64,000 nucleotides of DNA from Halostagnicola kamekurae (GCF_900116205.1 NZ_FOZS01000002.1:310001-374000); one strand, 5' to 3'; shown: positions 23,757 to 61,874, counted from the first letter of the stretch. Notes: generated by a model not told the origin, from the letters alone. Numbers and translations: made by a program.

Positions 23757-23922
23757 CGGGTATTCGGGTAGTCGACGCCCAATCATATACGTTTTCTGAT
23801 AATTATTTACCCGGTCTCGAGTGAACCGCTCGAGCGCGCCGTGAGTTTCGTGGGCGACTCGAGCCGACGGACGGGTCGGTCCGATCGCGGGATTTTTGCG
23901 GGTGGGGTCGGTGGAGTCGGTC

Positions 23923-25212
23923 ATGACGCTCGATCCGGTCCACTTCGACGGCATCGCGCGACTCGCGCGGCGGATCGACCACGGTGCCGACGAGCGGGAC
24001 CACCGGGAGTTCGCCGAGACGGTCTGGGAGTCGTTTCTGGATCCACTCGCCTACGACGGCCGGACGATTCTCGAGCCGATCGGCGAGCGGCGAAAGCGAC
24101 TCGTCGACTGCGAGGACGTCGCGCTCTGCGAGCGGCCGTTTCCGACCCAGCACGGCCTCGACGCCGGGACGATCAACCCGACGACGTTCAAAAACGGGCT
24201 GGTCATCGACATTGCACAGGCCGCGATGAGCACGACCCCGAGCGACCTCGACTTACACCGCTCGCGAACCGTCGTCGCGACGGTCCACTCGAACGACGAG
24301 ACTGCGCGGGTCGACGATCGATGGGACGCCTTCGACGAGGGGTACAGTCGCTCGCGAGCCGTGAAGGTGCCGCCGCTGCCCCGGTTCGCGGAGGGCGTCG
24401 TCCACGCGCTCGCGCTGTATCTCGCCGAGAGCGAACACGCCCGCGAACACGCCGACGACGTCTCCGATCTGCTCGTTCTGGACGGACCGCTCTACCCTCG
24501 CGGACTGCTTCGATGGGCCGACCAGCACCCCGATCTCGCCGATTTCCTGCTCGAGGATCCGCGCCCGGAGACGGTCCTCGAGAACTACGTTCGGCTGGTC
24601 GAGCGCTTCTGTGAGCGGGGCGTTCCCCTGATCGGGTTCGTCAAGAACCCCGCGACGCGCGTCATAACCCGGACGCTCAAACGAAAGAAGCGAACGGAAG
24701 GAGACGTGGGAATCGACGTTCCCTGGGCCGACGACTCCGCGATGTTCACCCGGATCTTAGAGCGCGGGGAGTACGTCGACGACGTCGACGGCGAGCGCTG
24801 GGAGCGAGACACCTCCGCGCTGACCTACACCAACTGGTTCCGGTCTCGAGGCGGCGTCGATCGGCCGCTGTCGGTCGAGGGCGACGCGCTCGGCGTCGAG
24901 CGAAAGCGAGACCTCGAGAGCTACGAGGTGACGTTTTTCGTCCTCTACGATCCGCGCGATGACCTGCTCTACCGAGTCGAAGCGCCCTACGCCTTCACCC
25001 GCGATCCGGACCTTCGCGAACGGCTGACGACGCACGTGCTCCAGAACGTGGCGATCGCCCACGGCCCGCCGACGATCATCGAGAAGGCGGACGAACTGGC
25101 CCGAATTAGCAATCCGGAGAAGCGCTCGCTCCGCGAGAGTTTAGAGGACAGTTTCGACACGACGCGGGACCGGACCTACGACAATCACCGGTGGGGCGAG
25201 GATCTGGTCTGA
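23923..25212 (+). CDS. nurA: NurA-domain 5'-3' nuclease
   Basis: A 429-residue protein resembling the haloarchaeal NurA nuclease, which with the HerA translocase resects DNA ends for recombination. It has the NurA-like FKNGLVIDIAQAAMS strand, VVATVHSN, the VLDGPLYPRGL acidic site and, later, LIGFVKNPATRVITRTLKR. The C-terminal half has PWADDSAMFTRIL, FFVLYDPRDD and VLQNVAIAHGPP. The acidic residues needed for Mn-dependent cleavage appear present (D in VIDIAQ and DGPLY). herA lies 2.3 kb downstream on the same strand, so the pair is split by three genes. ATG at 23923 fits the family start. Confidence 0.82.
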   Translation: MTLDPVHFDGIARLARRIDHGADERDHREFAETVWESFLDPLAYDGRTILEPIGERRKRLVDCEDVALCERPFPTQHGLDAGTINPTTFKNGLVIDIAQAAMSTTPSDLDLHRSRTVVATVHSNDETARVDDRWDAFDEGYSRSRAVKVPPLPRFAEGVVHALALYLAESEHAREHADDVSDLLVLDGPLYPRGLLRWADQHPDLADFLLEDPRPETVLENYVRLVERFCERGVPLIGFVKNPATRVITRTLKRKKRTEGDVGIDVPWADDSAMFTRILERGEYVDDVDGERWERDTSALTYTNWFRSRGGVDRPLSVEGDALGVERKRDLESYEVTFFVLYDPRDDLLYRVEAPYAFTRDPDLRERLTTHVLQNVAIAHGPPTIIEKADELARISNPEKRSLRESLEDSFDTTRDRTYDNHRWGEDLV

Positions 25213-25422: not shown

Positions 25423-26178
25423 ATGAGAGACGACCACACTCGAACCGATCACCTCCGACGTGTCGCGCTCACACTCGCGATCCTCCTCGCCGCGGCTGGC
25501 TTCGCCGTCGGCGCGGTCGCCGGAGCCGATCAACTCGCCGTGTTGACGCCGACGCCCCACAGCGTCGAGGCCGATCCCGGCGAGGAGTTCACCGTCGACG
25601 TCGCCATGGTAACCGACGGCGGCTACGGCGGCGAGGGCGTCGACTCCGTCGACTTCGTCGCCCAGTATCATCCGGAGTACCTCGAGATAACCTCGATCGA
25701 GCCCGGGCCGTGGCTCGAGCAGGGCGAGGAGACGACGGTTCGAAGCGACGAGACCCTCGCCCACGAGAACGGGACGGCCGTCCTCGAACAGTGGCGCGAT
25801 CCCGTCCAGGGCGGGGCGACCGGGAACGAGCGCCTCGTGACGTTCACGGTTGAAGTCGCCGAGGGCGCACCGCCCGGCGAGACCACTATCGACGTCACGG
25901 AAACGAGCGTCGGTCTCGAGCAGTCTTACCCGCTACAGGTCCACGGGCAGGACGTCTCCGTCTCGATTGACGGCGGGGACGAGTCGCTCGAGTCGTTCGA
26001 GCATCCGGACCCCGACGAACTCGCAGCGACGGGAGCAGGCGGTGGGGAAGAAAACGGTAGCGAGCAGCCGACAGACGAGTCCGACGCCTCACTGTTCGGT
26101 CCCGGCGCGTTCGTCCTGATTGCAACCGTCTTCGTCGGTCTCGTCGTCGTGTTTCTGTCGACTCGCGGCACTCGATGA
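25423..26178 (+). CDS. Secreted cohesin-like domain protein with C-terminal membrane anchor
   Basis: A 251-residue precursor. Residues 1-35 are a basic then hydrophobic signal sequence. Residues 38-185 look like a cohesin-type beta sandwich: VEADPGEEFTVDVAM, VDSVDFVAQYHPEYLEITSI, NERLVTFTVEVAEGAPPGETT. An acidic linker rich in Glu, Ser and Gly follows, and then one C-terminal helix (FGPGAFVLIATVFVGLVVVF) with a short positive tail. The protein should sit on the cell surface with its sandwich domain outward. It is read in the same direction as nurA. Two other cohesin-like proteins are at 58.5-61.9 kb. Confidence 0.7.
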   Translation: MRDDHTRTDHLRRVALTLAILLAAAGFAVGAVAGADQLAVLTPTPHSVEADPGEEFTVDVAMVTDGGYGGEGVDSVDFVAQYHPEYLEITSIEPGPWLEQGEETTVRSDETLAHENGTAVLEQWRDPVQGGATGNERLVTFTVEVAEGAPPGETTIDVTETSVGLEQSYPLQVHGQDVSVSIDGGDESLESFEHPDPDELAATGAGGGEENGSEQPTDESDASLFGPGAFVLIATVFVGLVVVFLSTRGTR

Positions 26179-27285: not shown

Positions 27286-27522
27286 ATCCGACCGGCGGTT
27301 GAAGGTGTCTTCCGCTCGAGCGCCAGTGCAGGCCACTCCATCGTTCGAGTGCCGTCCGAGCCCCGTTTTTCGACTCGAGATCTCGTCGTCGCTCCGCTCG
27401 CTCCTCTTACACCGACGCTTTTCACATCGTTCGTTTCATCGCTCTCGAGTCACCGCCGTCCAGAACACAACTTCAACACGTGTCTCGGTATTTCTTTGAG
27501 GGACGAATCAGATATCGTGTAT

Positions 27523-29415
27523 ATGAGCGATCTGGGCGATTTCACCGATCACGCCGCCGACAGCGGCGACGACTCGAGCGGGACGGCGGATTCGGCCGAC
27601 AGTTCGGCCGGCGGCGGGACGGAAACGAACGCGGCGACCGCTGCCGACGAGTTCGAGGCCCCCGTGGTGGACCCGCAGGGCGAAGACGTCGGCATCGGCA
27701 CCATCTGCGTTTCCCAGGGGCTTCGGATCGCCGAGGACGAAGACGACACGACGCTTCGGGCCTACGTCACTCGGGGAAACCGCTCCGACATCAGGATCGG
27801 AACGTACCTGCTCGCGTCCTATCCCGAGGAGACGGGACAGGCCACGGGATCGACGACCGGCGGCAACGGCCCGGCCGGAGCGGCGAGTGACGAGACGCTG
27901 TTCTGTCGAATCACCGGCCTCGAGTACGCCCAGCAGTACCACGCCGACGACGCGACGGAGATCCACGCTCGGCGGGCGATGCGCCGGGACGGCATCGACG
28001 AAGCCGACTTCAAGTTCATCGCCTCGCTCGAGCCGGTCGCGGTGTTGTACGAAGACGATGGCGAGCTCAAGCGCCGGATGACCGATCGGGTGCCCAAACC
28101 CCAGACGGTGATCCGGACGGCCGACGACACTGAGGAGATCAAGACGGGGCTGAAGATCCCCGAGGACGGGGTCTTCCTCGGCCACCTCTCGGTCGGCGGT
28201 GAGAAGGTCCGGACGGCCGCCTCGCCGCCGACGATCGATTACCCGCTGAAAGACGACTACGAGGCGGGCGATCCGCTCGTCTTTCGACACTCGCTGGTCG
28301 CCGGCGGAACGGGGTCGGGGAAGACCCACGCCGCGAAGAACGTCCTCCGGCAGTACCTCGCCGAGGACCGGACCTATCCAATGGACGACGGCCGGGAGGT
28401 CCAGCCCGCGGTCGTCCAGTTCGACCCGCAGGACGAGTACGCCCAGATGCACGACGACAACCCCGAACTGGACGGCGAGTTCGCGCGGCGGCTCGAGCGC
28501 GAGGACATCGCCTACGGCGGCGTCGAGAAGACCACCGCGTTCGTGCCGAAAGTCGGGAACTCCTCGTACGCGGCGGGCCACCACCGCGCCGAGCAGGTCG
28601 AGTTCACGATTCCGTTCTCGATGGTCCACGAGAACCCGTGGCTGGTCGCCGGCAGCGGCCTCAACGACAACCAGTACGGCGCGCTCACGAGCGTCCTGCT
28701 CCCGCGCTTTCGAGATCAGTACGGCCCCGACGCCACCTACAGCGAGTTCACGACCTTCCTCGACGACCCGGCGCTGCGGGAGGAACTCGACGAGTCCGGT
28801 CGGGTCCACGAGGCGACTTTCGATGCCGTCCGCCGACGCGTGCTCGGCTTCGACCACGTCTTCGATCAGGACGCTCGGCCGATCACCGACCTGATCCACG
28901 AGTTCGTCCGCCCCGGCGGGCTCTCGGTGGTCCCGACCTACCACATCAACGACTCGAGGGCGACCGAAGCCGTCGTCCTCGCGCTCTCGAGTCTGCTCAT
29001 CGACCAGAAGCTCTCGAACGATCCGACCTACGACCGGATCAAGGAGACGCCACTAATTTTGGGGATGGACGAGGCGCACAACTTCCTGACCGACGCCGAC
29101 AGCGTGCAGGCGGGGAAGGTCATCCGCAAGTTTACCGAGGCGGCGAAGCAGGGCCGAAAGGAGCGACTCGGCCTCTTTCTCATCACGCAGGACCCACAGG
29201 ACATCGACGACGCGGTCTTCAAACAGATCAACACGACCGTCGTCCTCAACCTCGGCGACGAGGACGCCATCAAGAGCGTGAACATCCCGAGCAACCTCGA
29301 GTCGAAAGTGCCCTACATGGAGAAGGGCCAGATGGTCGTCTACTCCCCCGACAATTCGGAGCCGGTCGAACTGATCGGCCTCTCGAAGTGTCTCACCAGA
29401 CACGGACGGGATTGA
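27523..29415 (+). CDS. herA: HerA-type DNA translocase ATPase
   Basis: A 630-residue FtsK/HerA ATPase that moves along DNA as a hexamer and works with the NurA nuclease in end resection. An N-terminal Ser/Gly/Asp-rich tail of about 40 residues precedes a HAS-barrel-like domain (GIGTICVSQGLRIAEDED). Walker A is GGTGSGKTHAAK near residues 261-272, and Walker B is PLILGMDEAHNFL. LFLITQDPQDIDDAVFKQIN carries the sensor and arginine-type region. The C-terminus has VPYMEKGQMVVYSPDNSEPV. ATG at 27523 was chosen because the upstream frame lacks coding bias. The nurA gene is 2.3 kb upstream. Confidence 0.9.
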   Translation: MSDLGDFTDHAADSGDDSSGTADSADSSAGGGTETNAATAADEFEAPVVDPQGEDVGIGTICVSQGLRIAEDEDDTTLRAYVTRGNRSDIRIGTYLLASYPEETGQATGSTTGGNGPAGAASDETLFCRITGLEYAQQYHADDATEIHARRAMRRDGIDEADFKFIASLEPVAVLYEDDGELKRRMTDRVPKPQTVIRTADDTEEIKTGLKIPEDGVFLGHLSVGGEKVRTAASPPTIDYPLKDDYEAGDPLVFRHSLVAGGTGSGKTHAAKNVLRQYLAEDRTYPMDDGREVQPAVVQFDPQDEYAQMHDDNPELDGEFARRLEREDIAYGGVEKTTAFVPKVGNSSYAAGHHRAEQVEFTIPFSMVHENPWLVAGSGLNDNQYGALTSVLLPRFRDQYGPDATYSEFTTFLDDPALREELDESGRVHEATFDAVRRRVLGFDHVFDQDARPITDLIHEFVRPGGLSVVPTYHINDSRATEAVVLALSSLLIDQKLSNDPTYDRIKETPLILGMDEAHNFLTDADSVQAGKVIRKFTEAAKQGRKERLGLFLITQDPQDIDDAVFKQINTTVVLNLGDEDAIKSVNIPSNLESKVPYMEKGQMVVYSPDNSEPVELIGLSKCLTRHGRD

Positions 29416-58521: not shown

Positions 58522-59274
58522 TTAGGGTCGCCGTGCGACCAGGATGGCCGCACTACTCACGATCGCGGCGACCGCGATTCCGGCCGCGAAGCCGGGGACC
58601 GAATCGCCGTCCGAGCCGTTATCGCCCTCGGATTCGTTCTGTGATGCCGGGTCCTCCCCGCCGTTGCCGACGGTGAGGGTGCCGGCCGCTAGAGCCGGAT
58701 CGATGGAGTCGCCGCCGTCGGCGTCGAGTTGGGCGTCCGAGACGCGCAGGTCCGTCGCACCGTGATCGACGCCAGTCACGTCAATCTCCGCCAGCGTGAC
58801 GTCCGTTTCGCCGGGCGTGACCCCATCGTCGAGGTCGATCGCTTCGACCGTGACAGTCTGCTCGTCGCTGGTCACGACGGGATCGCTCGAGAGAGCGAAC
58901 CGATCCGGATAGCTGGCGTTTTCGATGGTCGCGACGCCCTCGGTCTCGAGCGCGAGCGTGACCTCGAATCCCGCGAGCCCCTCCGGTGCGTCGGTCAACG
59001 CGATGCGATGTGTCGCGTTTGACTCGGTATCGACCGTCTCGTTGGAGACGACGAGCGTCGGGTCGGTTGCCGCGTCCTGACTCCCGACGGTCGCGCTGGG
59101 AGTCGATTCGGCTCCGGCAACTGCGACCGCTCCGATCGCGGCCGATCCGACCGCGACGAGGATCGCCATGGTGGCGGCGAGCGTCCGGATCGTTCGCCGT
59201 CGCTGTGGCGTTCGAACCGAAAACTGCGCGTCGGTGGTCGGTCCGCTCGAGTCGGTTCCGCCCATCAGGTTCAC
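58522..59274 (-). CDS. Cohesin-like surface protein with PGF-CTERM anchor
   Basis: A 250-residue precursor. A basic N-terminus and signal helix (TIRTLAATMAILVAVGSAAI) lead to one cohesin-like beta sandwich at about residues 68-200 (VVSNETVDTESNATHRIALT, APEGLAGFEVTLALETEG, VTPGETDVTLAEIDVTGVDH). Then come an acidic Ser/Asn/Gly linker and a C-terminal tripartite signal PGFAAGIAVAAIVSSAAILV with RRP, which fits PGF-CTERM processing by archaeosortase A. It starts with GTG overlapping the stop of the dockerin protein gene (GTGA), so the two are coupled. An ATG at 59265 is an alternative. Confidence 0.82.
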   Translation of the reverse strand: MNLMGGTDSSGPTTDAQFSVRTPQRRRTIRTLAATMAILVAVGSAAIGAVAVAGAESTPSATVGSQDAATDPTLVVSNETVDTESNATHRIALTDAPEGLAGFEVTLALETEGVATIENASYPDRFALSSDPVVTSDEQTVTVEAIDLDDGVTPGETDVTLAEIDVTGVDHGATDLRVSDAQLDADGGDSIDPALAAGTLTVGNGGEDPASQNESEGDNGSDGDSVPGFAAGIAVAAIVSSAAILVARRP

Positions 59275-61874
59275 AGTTCGTCGGCGAGCGAGACGATGTC
59301 TTCGTAATCGATGCGGCCGTTCTCGTTGAAGTCGAACGCGTCATCGTTCAGTCGGACGGAATCGCCCTCGATGTTCTCGAACAAGACGACGACGTCGTCG
59401 TAGTCGAGTCGACCGTTGCCGTTGACATCCTCGAACGTCCCGTCACCGTCGGGATCGGTCGGGGGACTGCCGCCGGGTCCGCCACCGCCGAGCGACGGCG
59501 GGCCGGTGACGATGACGCCGGGTCGAGGCTGGGGATCGATGGCCATCCCCGAATCGTCGTCCATCGCGTGGACCGCGAGTGTGAGGTCGGTCGTCCCCGC
59601 CCCGACGCCCTCGAGTTCGATCGACGCCAGCGTGACGTTTCGCTCGCCGGATTCGATCTCGTTTCCGATATCCGCGAACCGGAACTCGATGGTCGAGCCG
59701 TCGTCGCTGACGGTCGGGTCGCTGGTGAGTTCGATTCCGTCGCCGTAGTTCGCGCCCGTAATCTCGGCGACGTCCGTGTGTTCGACGGACGCGGTGATGC
59801 GCCCGCCTGCGAGTCCGTCGGGAACCGACGAGAGCGTCAGATCGACCTCGCCGGTCGCCTCCTGGCTGACTCCGAGGGAGTCGACGTGAAGCGTCGCCGG
59901 CGGTTCGTAGACCCACATGGTGTCGTTGGAATACGACCGGCCGAACCCGCCTTTGTCCTCACAGAGCAGCACTCGGCCGTCGTCCATCACCATCACGTTG
60001 TCGACGTTGATCAGCGAAACGTCTTTCAGGGACTGGGAGTCGCTCGCGTTCGGGCCGACGATGACCGGCTCGAGCGTGGAGACGTCGTATCCGGACTCGA
60101 GTTCCGCGCGGTAGACGACGCCACTGTCGACCTCGTCGAACCGGAGTTCTCCTTCCTCGTCGGTCATGTATCCGCCGAGCGAGGAGATGCCGAAGTAGAT
60201 GAAGTCGCCGGGCTGGGCGTCGTCGTGAGAGTCGATCCCTTCGGCCTTGTTAAATTCGATGCTGGCACCGATCTCCTTGGCGGCGGCCCGCGTCTCGAGG
60301 AACGGGACTCGGCGCAGATTCTCGTCGACCTCGTCGGGACCGTCTTCCTCGTACTGTCGGGCCCACTTGACCACCTCCTCGTCGGTGATGTAGTCTTGGT
60401 TGCCGTTGATGGCGACTTCCTCATCGGCCTCGACGAGGGCGGTCTCGAGGTCGTCCTCCCAGTCAGTCTCGGCGTGGGTCTCGAGGTAGTCGACCTGCGT
60501 CACGTCGTCGTAGTCCGTGATCCAGGACTCGACTTCGGCGTTGCTCGCGCTGCCCAGCTCGAGCCACTCGACCTCGAGGTCCGTCTCGGCGACCGGTCCG
60601 TCGCCGACTTCGGTCGCTTTTATCGCGAAGAGCGTGCCGCTTACGTCCATTCGGCTCTCGTACTCGGGGATCGGCTCGTCGGCGACGAACTTGTAGATCC
60701 CCTTCGCGCCGCCGTCGGAGGCCAAGTAGACGGTCCTCTCGTCGGGGAGTACTTCCGGGCACTCCCACGCGGCGCGACCGAAGACGTGGTGCTTGACGGG
60801 GGTGGGTTCCTCGGCGGTCGGGTCGGCGATTTCGACGATGTGCCCGTACCGGTAGCGGTTCGGGAAGTCGCCGTCGATGGGCGTGTACGTCTCGTCGTCG
60901 TCCGATCGGTCCGGGACGTCGGCGCCGAGATACTTGGCCAGCCGCTCCATGCTCCAGGTCGAGCTGAGCCCCATCGGATACCAGCTCTCGGCGCCGAATA
61001 TCTCGTCGAGATCGTCCGTGAGGGTGTCGAGGTTAGGCCGGTTCCAGAACTCACAGCCCCCCCGGATACCGACGCCGCTGCCTTCCTCGACGATGTCGCT
61101 GACCGTCGCCAGACCGCCGACGCGGGGGTGGTCGTACTCCTCTTCGGCCGAGAGGGGCGTCTCCCACGGGCTCAGGTCGCCGTAACAGTTGATCTTCGTC
61201 CCGCCGAGTTCGCGAAAGGAGTCGTGGTTCTCGATCTCGTCGGCGTTCTCGAGGTCGACCTCCCAGCTCCCCTCCTCGGTTCGGCTGATCGGCGTTCGCG
61301 AGATCGACCCGGGCGTGTTCTCGTTGTTCGTGAAGAGATAACCCTCGGTGCCGTCCTCGTTCGTCGAGACGAAGAAGTTCATGTCCATGTTGTCGCCGGT
61401 CGGGATGTTCTCCCCGTCGGGGGTCTTGGGGATTCCCCAGTTCTCCGTCCCGCCGTTGATCTCGTCACCGTACTGCGCGAGGAGGCGATACTGTCCACCC
61501 GCCGACTGCACCTGACCTTGCTCCCCGTTGGTTCGCGGCGGTGCCAGCTCCTCGAAGTCGTCGTTGTCTCCGTCGAACGTAAACCGGAAGTCGTCGATGA
61601 CGCCGACGCCGCCCCGATCGAACGGCGCCGGGTTGTCTTCGCTCGGGTGCTGTAGGCTGTAGAGCAACTCGCCCGTCTCGAAGACGAACGGTCCCGTCAC
61701 CTCGGCACCGCGTGCAGTCGTCGAGAACCGTTTGAGCTTCCCGTTGACGTACGGCGCTGTCAGCGTGTCGTGTTCGTCCGGTCGATCCGCTGCGCCGGCC
61801 ACGCCGACCACGCCGGCACCGACTGCCGCTGCCATCGACGACGCCATCAGGTTCCGCCTGGTAAATTTGGGCAT
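59271..61874 (-). CDS. Tat-exported DUF839/PhoX-like protein with cohesin and dockerin modules
   Basis: An 867-residue precursor. The Tat signal is MPKFTRRNLMASSMAAAVGA. Residues 40-640 resemble DUF839/PhoX phosphatases: VFETGELLYSLQHPSEDNPA, GGTKINCYGDLSPWETPLSA, HHVFGRAAWECPEVLPDERT, VYLASDGGAKGIYKFVADEP and DNVMVMDDGRVLLCEDKGG. A cohesin-like module follows (VPDGLAGGRITASVEHTDVA; SGERNVTLASIELEGVGAG). The end is a type-I dockerin with two calcium loops, DVNGNGRLDYDDVVVLFENI and DFNENGRIDYEDIVSLADEL. It would act outside the cell and could dock on cohesin proteins such as the coupled downstream one. The reading frame upstream of 61874 is not used, given a TATA-like box at 61908-61915. Confidence 0.85.
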   Translation of the reverse strand: MPKFTRRNLMASSMAAAVGAGVVGVAGAADRPDEHDTLTAPYVNGKLKRFSTTARGAEVTGPFVFETGELLYSLQHPSEDNPAPFDRGGVGVIDDFRFTFDGDNDDFEELAPPRTNGEQGQVQSAGGQYRLLAQYGDEINGGTENWGIPKTPDGENIPTGDNMDMNFFVSTNEDGTEGYLFTNNENTPGSISRTPISRTEEGSWEVDLENADEIENHDSFRELGGTKINCYGDLSPWETPLSAEEEYDHPRVGGLATVSDIVEEGSGVGIRGGCEFWNRPNLDTLTDDLDEIFGAESWYPMGLSSTWSMERLAKYLGADVPDRSDDDETYTPIDGDFPNRYRYGHIVEIADPTAEEPTPVKHHVFGRAAWECPEVLPDERTVYLASDGGAKGIYKFVADEPIPEYESRMDVSGTLFAIKATEVGDGPVAETDLEVEWLELGSASNAEVESWITDYDDVTQVDYLETHAETDWEDDLETALVEADEEVAINGNQDYITDEEVVKWARQYEEDGPDEVDENLRRVPFLETRAAAKEIGASIEFNKAEGIDSHDDAQPGDFIYFGISSLGGYMTDEEGELRFDEVDSGVVYRAELESGYDVSTLEPVIVGPNASDSQSLKDVSLINVDNVMVMDDGRVLLCEDKGGFGRSYSNDTMWVYEPPATLHVDSLGVSQEATGEVDLTLSSVPDGLAGGRITASVEHTDVAEITGANYGDGIELTSDPTVSDDGSTIEFRFADIGNEIESGERNVTLASIELEGVGAGTTDLTLAVHAMDDDSGMAIDPQPRPGVIVTGPPSLGGGGPGGSPPTDPDGDGTFEDVNGNGRLDYDDVVVLFENIEGDSVRLNDDAFDFNENGRIDYEDIVSLADEL

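Follow-up and report, generated by a model that had tools for sequence, protein, structure and literature searches.

A conserved haloarchaeal cohesin-dockerin gene pair that very probably docks an exported PhoX-family enzyme at the cell surface

To our knowledge, nearly everything known about cohesin-dockerin assembly comes from anaerobic cellulose degraders. Archaeal copies are described in passages of PMC9012536 as being without clear function and, ANME archaea apart, without scaffoldins. A locus in a window of 64,000 nucleotides from Halostagnicola kamekurae (GCF_900116205.1, NZ_FOZS01000002.1:310001-374000) raises the question of what such modules may do in a haloarchaeon: a gene for a PhoX-family enzyme ending in a cohesin and a dockerin (ORF1) is followed by a gene for an anchored cohesin (ORF2). 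An earlier note on this DNA had proposed that the anchored cohesin holds the exported, calcium-binding enzyme at the cell surface. We consider it very probable that the pair is indeed such a minimal surface-docking unit. All features given below lie on the minus strand, and coordinates are those of the whole window.

ORF1 (59271–61874; open frame from 61895) opens with a predicted Tat signal region, MPKFTRRNLMASSMAAAVGAG... (TRRNLM...), read from the sequence at 61785–61874 with the Tat start at 61874. Its catalytic domain is followed by a cohesin (cohesin 1, 59496–59894) and a C-terminal dockerin (59274–59459; profile A2, E 6e-27), which is the architecture the earlier note had assigned to a Tat-exported DUF839/PhoX-like protein. 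ORF2 (58522–59274) is an open frame for a predicted signal peptide, one cohesin (cohesin 2, 58663–59058; family profile E 6.4e-46) and a C-terminal anchor, and the anchored-cohesin gene is conserved downstream of ORF1 homologues. The ORF1 stop and the GTG start of ORF2 overlap by GTGA (59271–59274). This overlap, already pointed out in the note, is literally present, though ORF2 may start at an alternative ATG at 59265; the codon at that site is ATA in a congener, which leaves GTG alone there and makes the GTG start plausible. The anchor (58528–58608) is best called PGF-CTERM-like. The window protein scores 19.5 bits against TIGR04126, under the cut-off of 24.5, but nine of 25 ORF2 orthologues match PGF_CTERM (best 3e-10) and the genome encodes archaeosortase A (321 bits).

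A characteristic of both cohesins is that the standard sequence profiles fail to detect them. Neither window protein was matched by Pfam PF00963, which matches one of 34 family modules (E 0.0012), and no cohesin was found when the cohesin family profile was run against PDB sequences; fold prediction was hence needed. An AF2 model of the window tail (50 aligned sequences; pLDDT 88, pTM 0.71) was compared with the PDB, and the cohesin 1 part (pLDDT 88) matched 1g1k best (Z 15.9, rmsd 2.0 over 129 aa), with 1ohz at Z 15.7, the archaeal 2xdh at Z 15.5 and only cohesins among the leading matches. For cohesin 2 the fold evidence is a model of the orthologous chain from Natrinema pallidum, 48% identical to the window module, for which the best match was 5nrm (Z 15.5), 2xdh scored 15.2 and all 50 of the 50 matches listed were cohesins. 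The two modules have the GLAG-x-x-x-T ... GE-x-x-VTLA-x-I pattern in common and are homologues (35% identity, E 1.6e-15), and hence paralogues. By modelled fold, both of these cohesin-like modules are cohesins; membership of another beta-sandwich family was looked for and rejected, since the models of cohesin 1 and of the Natrinema protein both align with solved cohesin structures (Z 15.9 and 15.5).

The dockerin family profile matched the CelS dockerin (2mte/1daq) at E 2e-5, and EF-hand proteins as well. Against PF00404 the window dockerin reached 18.6 bits, under the cut-off of 22.9, and some relatives scored above it. Calcium loop 1 (DVNGNGRLDYDD, 59394–59429) and loop 2 (DFNENGRIDYED, 59298–59333) are both complete, with the calcium ligands at positions 1, 3, 5 and 12 in the sequence and the helices present in the model, as expected of the type-I dockerin with two intact loops that had been described. 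It is worth recording that the dockerin and both cohesins had been picked out although the Pfam cohesin profile misses them and the dockerin profile stays just under its cut-off.

In bacterial type I dockerins, recognition is carried by residues 10 and 11 in each of the two loops. These residues are YD in loop 1 and YE in loop 2 of the window dockerin. Across the dockerins compared, they were alike in the two loops of each protein and different between systems: Y/F-D in phosphatase-type dockerins, T-T/V-T and T-S/T-S in those of Natronoglomus mannanivorans, F-N/F-N in one further genome (G018) and F-A/F-A in many Methanomicrobiales.

The earlier note had recommended looking for the gene pair in other haloarchaeal genomes, and the pair proved to be conserved as a unit across the order Halobacteriales. 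The collected loci comprise 111 distinct cohesin-dockerin proteins. For 82 of them a gene for an anchored cohesin lies no more than 700 bp downstream, a proportion on which chance adjacency was rejected; the other 29 tails have no adjacent partner, and some of these have one elsewhere in the genome. In the first 61 genomes searched, full-length PhoX-cohesin-dockerin genes are without exception followed by an ORF2 homologue, in tandems after the second copy, and in a named set of 80 loci the pair also occurs in Natrinema, Halopiger, Haloarcula, Halorubrum, Halorientalis and others. Of 342 Halobacteriales genomes, 132 have both modules, 24 only the dockerin, six only the cohesin and 180 neither, and the numbers of dockerins and cohesins per genome are correlated (Spearman 0.78). 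This co-occurrence is partly trivial because one protein bears both modules. Beside a single dockerin, the commonest cohesin count is exactly two (52 of 91 genomes).

Evidence for ORF2 as the partner comes from the recognition residues. Each of the 82 dockerins encoded beside a partner gene carries Y or F as residue 10 in the two loops alike, and the aromatic residue is also kept where the partner sits elsewhere in the genome, e.g. in upstream tandem copies. In all seven PhoX-type orphans, defined by a genome-wide check as dockerins whose genome has no other close cohesin, the aromatic residue at position 10 of loop 1 is missing (D, H, R, G, D, D and D) and the calcium ligands are intact. The orphans come from genome G290, Halocatena marina (same locus as G274), two Halegenticoccus species, genome G070, Halalkalicoccus paucihalophilus (G085) and genome G251. 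Of these, G251 does contain a pair of divergent cohesins at a separate locus; in H. tardaugens a second cohesin lies within a long ORF. A tree of 85 proteins, computed with the dockerin left out, requires three events for partner loss and likewise three for residue loss, located on the same branches, and well-supported branches force two of the three. A sign test would need more events than these. The pattern suggests that the dockerin's partner is ORF2, for which it is strong but not final evidence. Since the residue is kept with the partner cohesin and lost without it, docking of the exported enzyme by ORF2 is the best reading; since the orphans retain cohesin 1, the residue appears to be held in place by the anchored cohesin and not by cohesin 1.

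In the mechanism that we propose, ORF1 would be folded in the cytoplasm and then exported by the Tat route, calcium would fold its C-terminal dockerin, and the dockerin would plug into the single cohesin of ORF2, itself secreted and kept in the membrane or S-layer by its PGF-CTERM-type tail. The putative phosphatase would then be located at the cell surface, yet be detachable and exchangeable. A tethered dockerin-ORF2 model for Natrinema pallidum, where the two genes are in frame with one stop codon between them, gave a pTM of 0.53, about the level of unbound domains.

The enzyme's own cohesin calls for an explanation of its own. It may have ceased to bind dockerins and serve as a rigid prop for its neighbour, leaving ORF2 as the sole partner; we give this a little under an even chance. 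The X module, which supports neighbouring type II dockerins, offers an analogy, and the cohesin 1-dockerin tandem travels as one piece across PhoX, PhoD, 5'-nucleotidase, GDPD, SNase and other proteins, is retained as to its cohesin in the orphans, and has a modelled pTM (0.71) that suggests a partly fixed arrangement. Speaking against a mere prop are the true cohesin fold of the module and a PhoX relative (G266) whose match extends into cohesin 1 and ends before the dockerin. The full fold, the presence of one cohesin and one dockerin in every enzyme, a conservation equal to that of cohesin 2 and the co-divergence of cohesin 1 with the dockerin would also suit chains, in which, besides the docking on ORF2, cohesin 1 binds the dockerin of another ORF1 and the chain ends on the anchored cohesin. 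We think such chains unlikely: the seven orphans keep cohesin 1 yet lose the loop-1 recognition residue, so that cohesin 1 does not seem to select for it, and co-divergence is expected between parts of a single chain. Partial Mantel tests of the dockerin against cohesin 1 and against cohesin 2 were both positive, a result in which partner and shared ancestry are inseparable. The earlier interpretation thus stands as regards docking by ORF2, on the strength of the fold, the conserved pair and the residue kept or lost with the partner, and its chains are reduced to a possibility.

As to what is docked, the catalytic domain of ORF1 (59937–61229, residues 223–653) matches PF05787 with 98.2 bits against a cut-off of 24, and full-length homologues occur in many haloarchaea. 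The PhoX part alone, ending at residue 666–669, is likewise found in many haloarchaea, which indicates that the cohesin-dockerin tail is a separable addition. The same tail is borne by a PhoD phosphatase (356 bits), a 5'-nucleotidase (130 bits) and a GDPD (glycerophosphodiester phosphodiesterase, 124 bits), as well as by an SNase-type nuclease protein and a choice-of-anchor I protein; modules are thus exchanged among phosphoesterases, and the haloarchaeal cargo theme, judged from domain matches, is the release of phosphorus from organic phosphate. Farther afield, a subtilase with the tail precedes a cohesin gene at an ANME-2 locus (L090), as does a glycoside-hydrolase-like protein at a Methanophagales locus (L101). 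It is conceivable, if rather doubtful, that ORF1 is docked as proposed and its PhoX-like domain has another role in vivo, such as binding or another esterase activity: phosphatase activity is a prediction, and the family profile matched the solved PhoX 3zwu only partially and in several pieces (E 1e-11, 47 bits). Against this stand the PF05787 score, the other phosphoesterases with the same tail, and an NC motif that is invariant in the aligned PhoX family and aligns with chain positions 178–179 of 3zwu, Cys179 of which we take to be an iron ligand.

The same modules are deployed on a larger scale elsewhere in haloarchaea. In Natronoglomus mannanivorans, a 1755-aa Tat protein combines a GH5 domain with eight cohesins; a 258-aa anchored cohesin homologous to ORF2 comes next, and behind it lies a series of dockerin proteins that contain GH5, GH10 and PL14 domains. 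The protein lengths agree with loci 2716–2735 of the species paper (PMC10963439), in which the 1755-aa and 258-aa proteins are named 'GH5/CBM6 endoglucanase' and 'S-layer glycoprotein' and the word cohesin is absent. In Halovivax sp. KZCA124 the corresponding protein is 2096 aa long and contains ten cohesins, and proteins with three to five cohesins occur in other haloarchaea. A cellulosome is defined by a multi-cohesin scaffoldin together with dockerin-bearing glycoside hydrolases, and sequences for both were found in N. mannanivorans and in Halovivax sp. KZCA124. The multi-cohesin proteins are likely to be cellulosome-type scaffoldins of apparently unrecognised cellulose-degrading complexes. 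The window genome has one dockerin, two cohesins of the family and no scaffoldin, which for this genome bears out the term 'non-cellulolytic' in the earlier note. No report of a haloarchaeal cellulosome was found in the open-access literature, most subscription papers lying outside the reach of the search, and the main text of a 2023 comparative study of haloarchaeal cellulose metabolism (PMC10267330) is without dockerins or cohesins.

We lean towards regarding all of this as one haloarchaeal cohesin-dockerin toolkit used at two scales. On the small scale, anchored single cohesins would dock phosphoesterases (PhoX, PhoD, 5'-nucleotidase, GDPD, nuclease) and so serve phosphorus scavenging; on the large scale, polysaccharide degraders would have true cellulosomes whose scaffoldins hold 3 to 10 cohesins. 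That the dockerin is instead a calcium module for substrate binding or stabilisation, with ORF2 being a surface protein unrelated to it, as would follow from the part in substrate binding ascribed to haloarchaeal dockerins in PMC10963439 and again in 2026 (PMC13260240) and would fit the presence of such domains on many secreted haloarchaeal enzymes, is very improbable, as it predicts neither the conserved downstream cohesin gene nor its cohesin fold, nor the loss of the recognition residue alone where the partner is missing, nor the multi-cohesin scaffoldins. The likely scaffoldins bear on those dockerins now read as substrate-binding domains. The compact conserved unit provides archaeal cohesins with an evident cargo, phosphoesterases, and an evident anchor, together with a natural experiment on the identity of the partner, and it is a potential source of salt-tolerant docking parts.

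Among known systems, the non-cellulosomal cohesins and dockerins of Archaeoglobus fulgidus (2xdh) resemble the window unit in being archaeal, in having few modules and in the cohesin fold. Archaeal cohesin-dockerin pairs have been reported to bind, according to work cited in passages of PMC9012536, and the function of the A. fulgidus modules is called unclear (PMC11452385); the window unit, by comparison, has a well-defined enzyme, anchor and gene arrangement, all conserved throughout an order. ANME archaea have comparable sets, including the same tail followed by a cohesin gene at the ANME-2 and Methanophagales loci, and the passages of PMC9012536 concerned give them scaffoldin-like proteins of up to five cohesins, where earlier work had archaea without scaffoldins. 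Their cargo includes transporter binding proteins, as far as those passages go, and the ANME-2 subtilase, with no phosphoesterase theme. The N. mannanivorans GH5/GH10 cluster (PMC10963439) shares the ORF2 homologue and the dockerin-bearing enzymes, and differs in being a multi-enzyme set built on the eight-cohesin GH5 scaffoldin (1755 aa) beside the 258-aa anchored cohesin. With the bacterial type I cellulosome (1ohz, 1g1k) and the single-cohesin anchor OlpA (3ul4), the window unit has in common the cohesin fold, the duplicated calcium loops, recognition positions 10 and 11 and an anchored single cohesin. Unlike them, it has neither scaffoldin nor glycoside hydrolase, its predicted cargo is a phosphatase, its anchor is PGF-CTERM-like rather than SLH, export is by Tat and the proteins are acidic, as in haloarchaea. 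What is new relative to the known cohesin-dockerin kind is the phosphatase cargo, the archaeosortase-type anchor and the order-wide conservation.

The window encodes a second cohesin protein of 251 aa (25423-26178, forward strand; PF00963, 33 bits), which carries a signal and a membrane segment at its C-terminus and whose gene is flanked by those for NurA (23896-25212) and a HerA-like ATPase (27349-29415). The H. kamekurae genome lacks a second dockerin that could serve this cohesin. It does contain a further PF00963 cohesin (locus L001, G000:C1:22761-23135), which likewise bears a membrane segment at the C-terminus and adjoins an ORF that resembles a Tat lipoprotein.

At G192:C2:787466-787863, the anchored cohesin beside a PhoX pair is broken across two frames, reflecting either a frameshift or a sequencing error; the recognition residues of the dockerins at this locus are still intact. 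At G266:C35:225301-227643, a PhoX protein in a frame of 796 aa has a match that extends into cohesin 1 and ends ahead of the dockerin. The Thermoproteaceae archaeon Bin S10 MAG (L093, L096) has cohesin-dockerin tails whose Y-D loops resemble those of haloarchaea, with cohesin matches downstream; transfer or a binning error is a possible source.

Catalytic scaffoldins are encoded in Natronoglomus mannanivorans NODE_3 (GH5 plus eight cohesins; L051:5075-11434 and L052) and in Halovivax sp. KZCA124 (GH5 plus 10 cohesins; L230:680-8015). Downstream of them come an anchored cohesin of the ORF2 type and GH5/GH10/PL14 enzymes that bear dockerins. More multi-cohesin proteins, neighboured by dockerin proteins, occur at loci L231, L232, L234, L235 and L236, among which are architectures of five cohesins and a dockerin (1032 aa), three cohesins and a dockerin (about 540 aa), and three cohesins with fn3, CBM5/12 and PKD (about 811-815 aa). 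A cellulosome reading of the N. mannanivorans genes is absent from the paper on that organism (PMC10963439); judged by sequence, the scaffoldin, anchored cohesin and dockerin-bearing enzymes likely constitute a haloarchaeal cellulosome.
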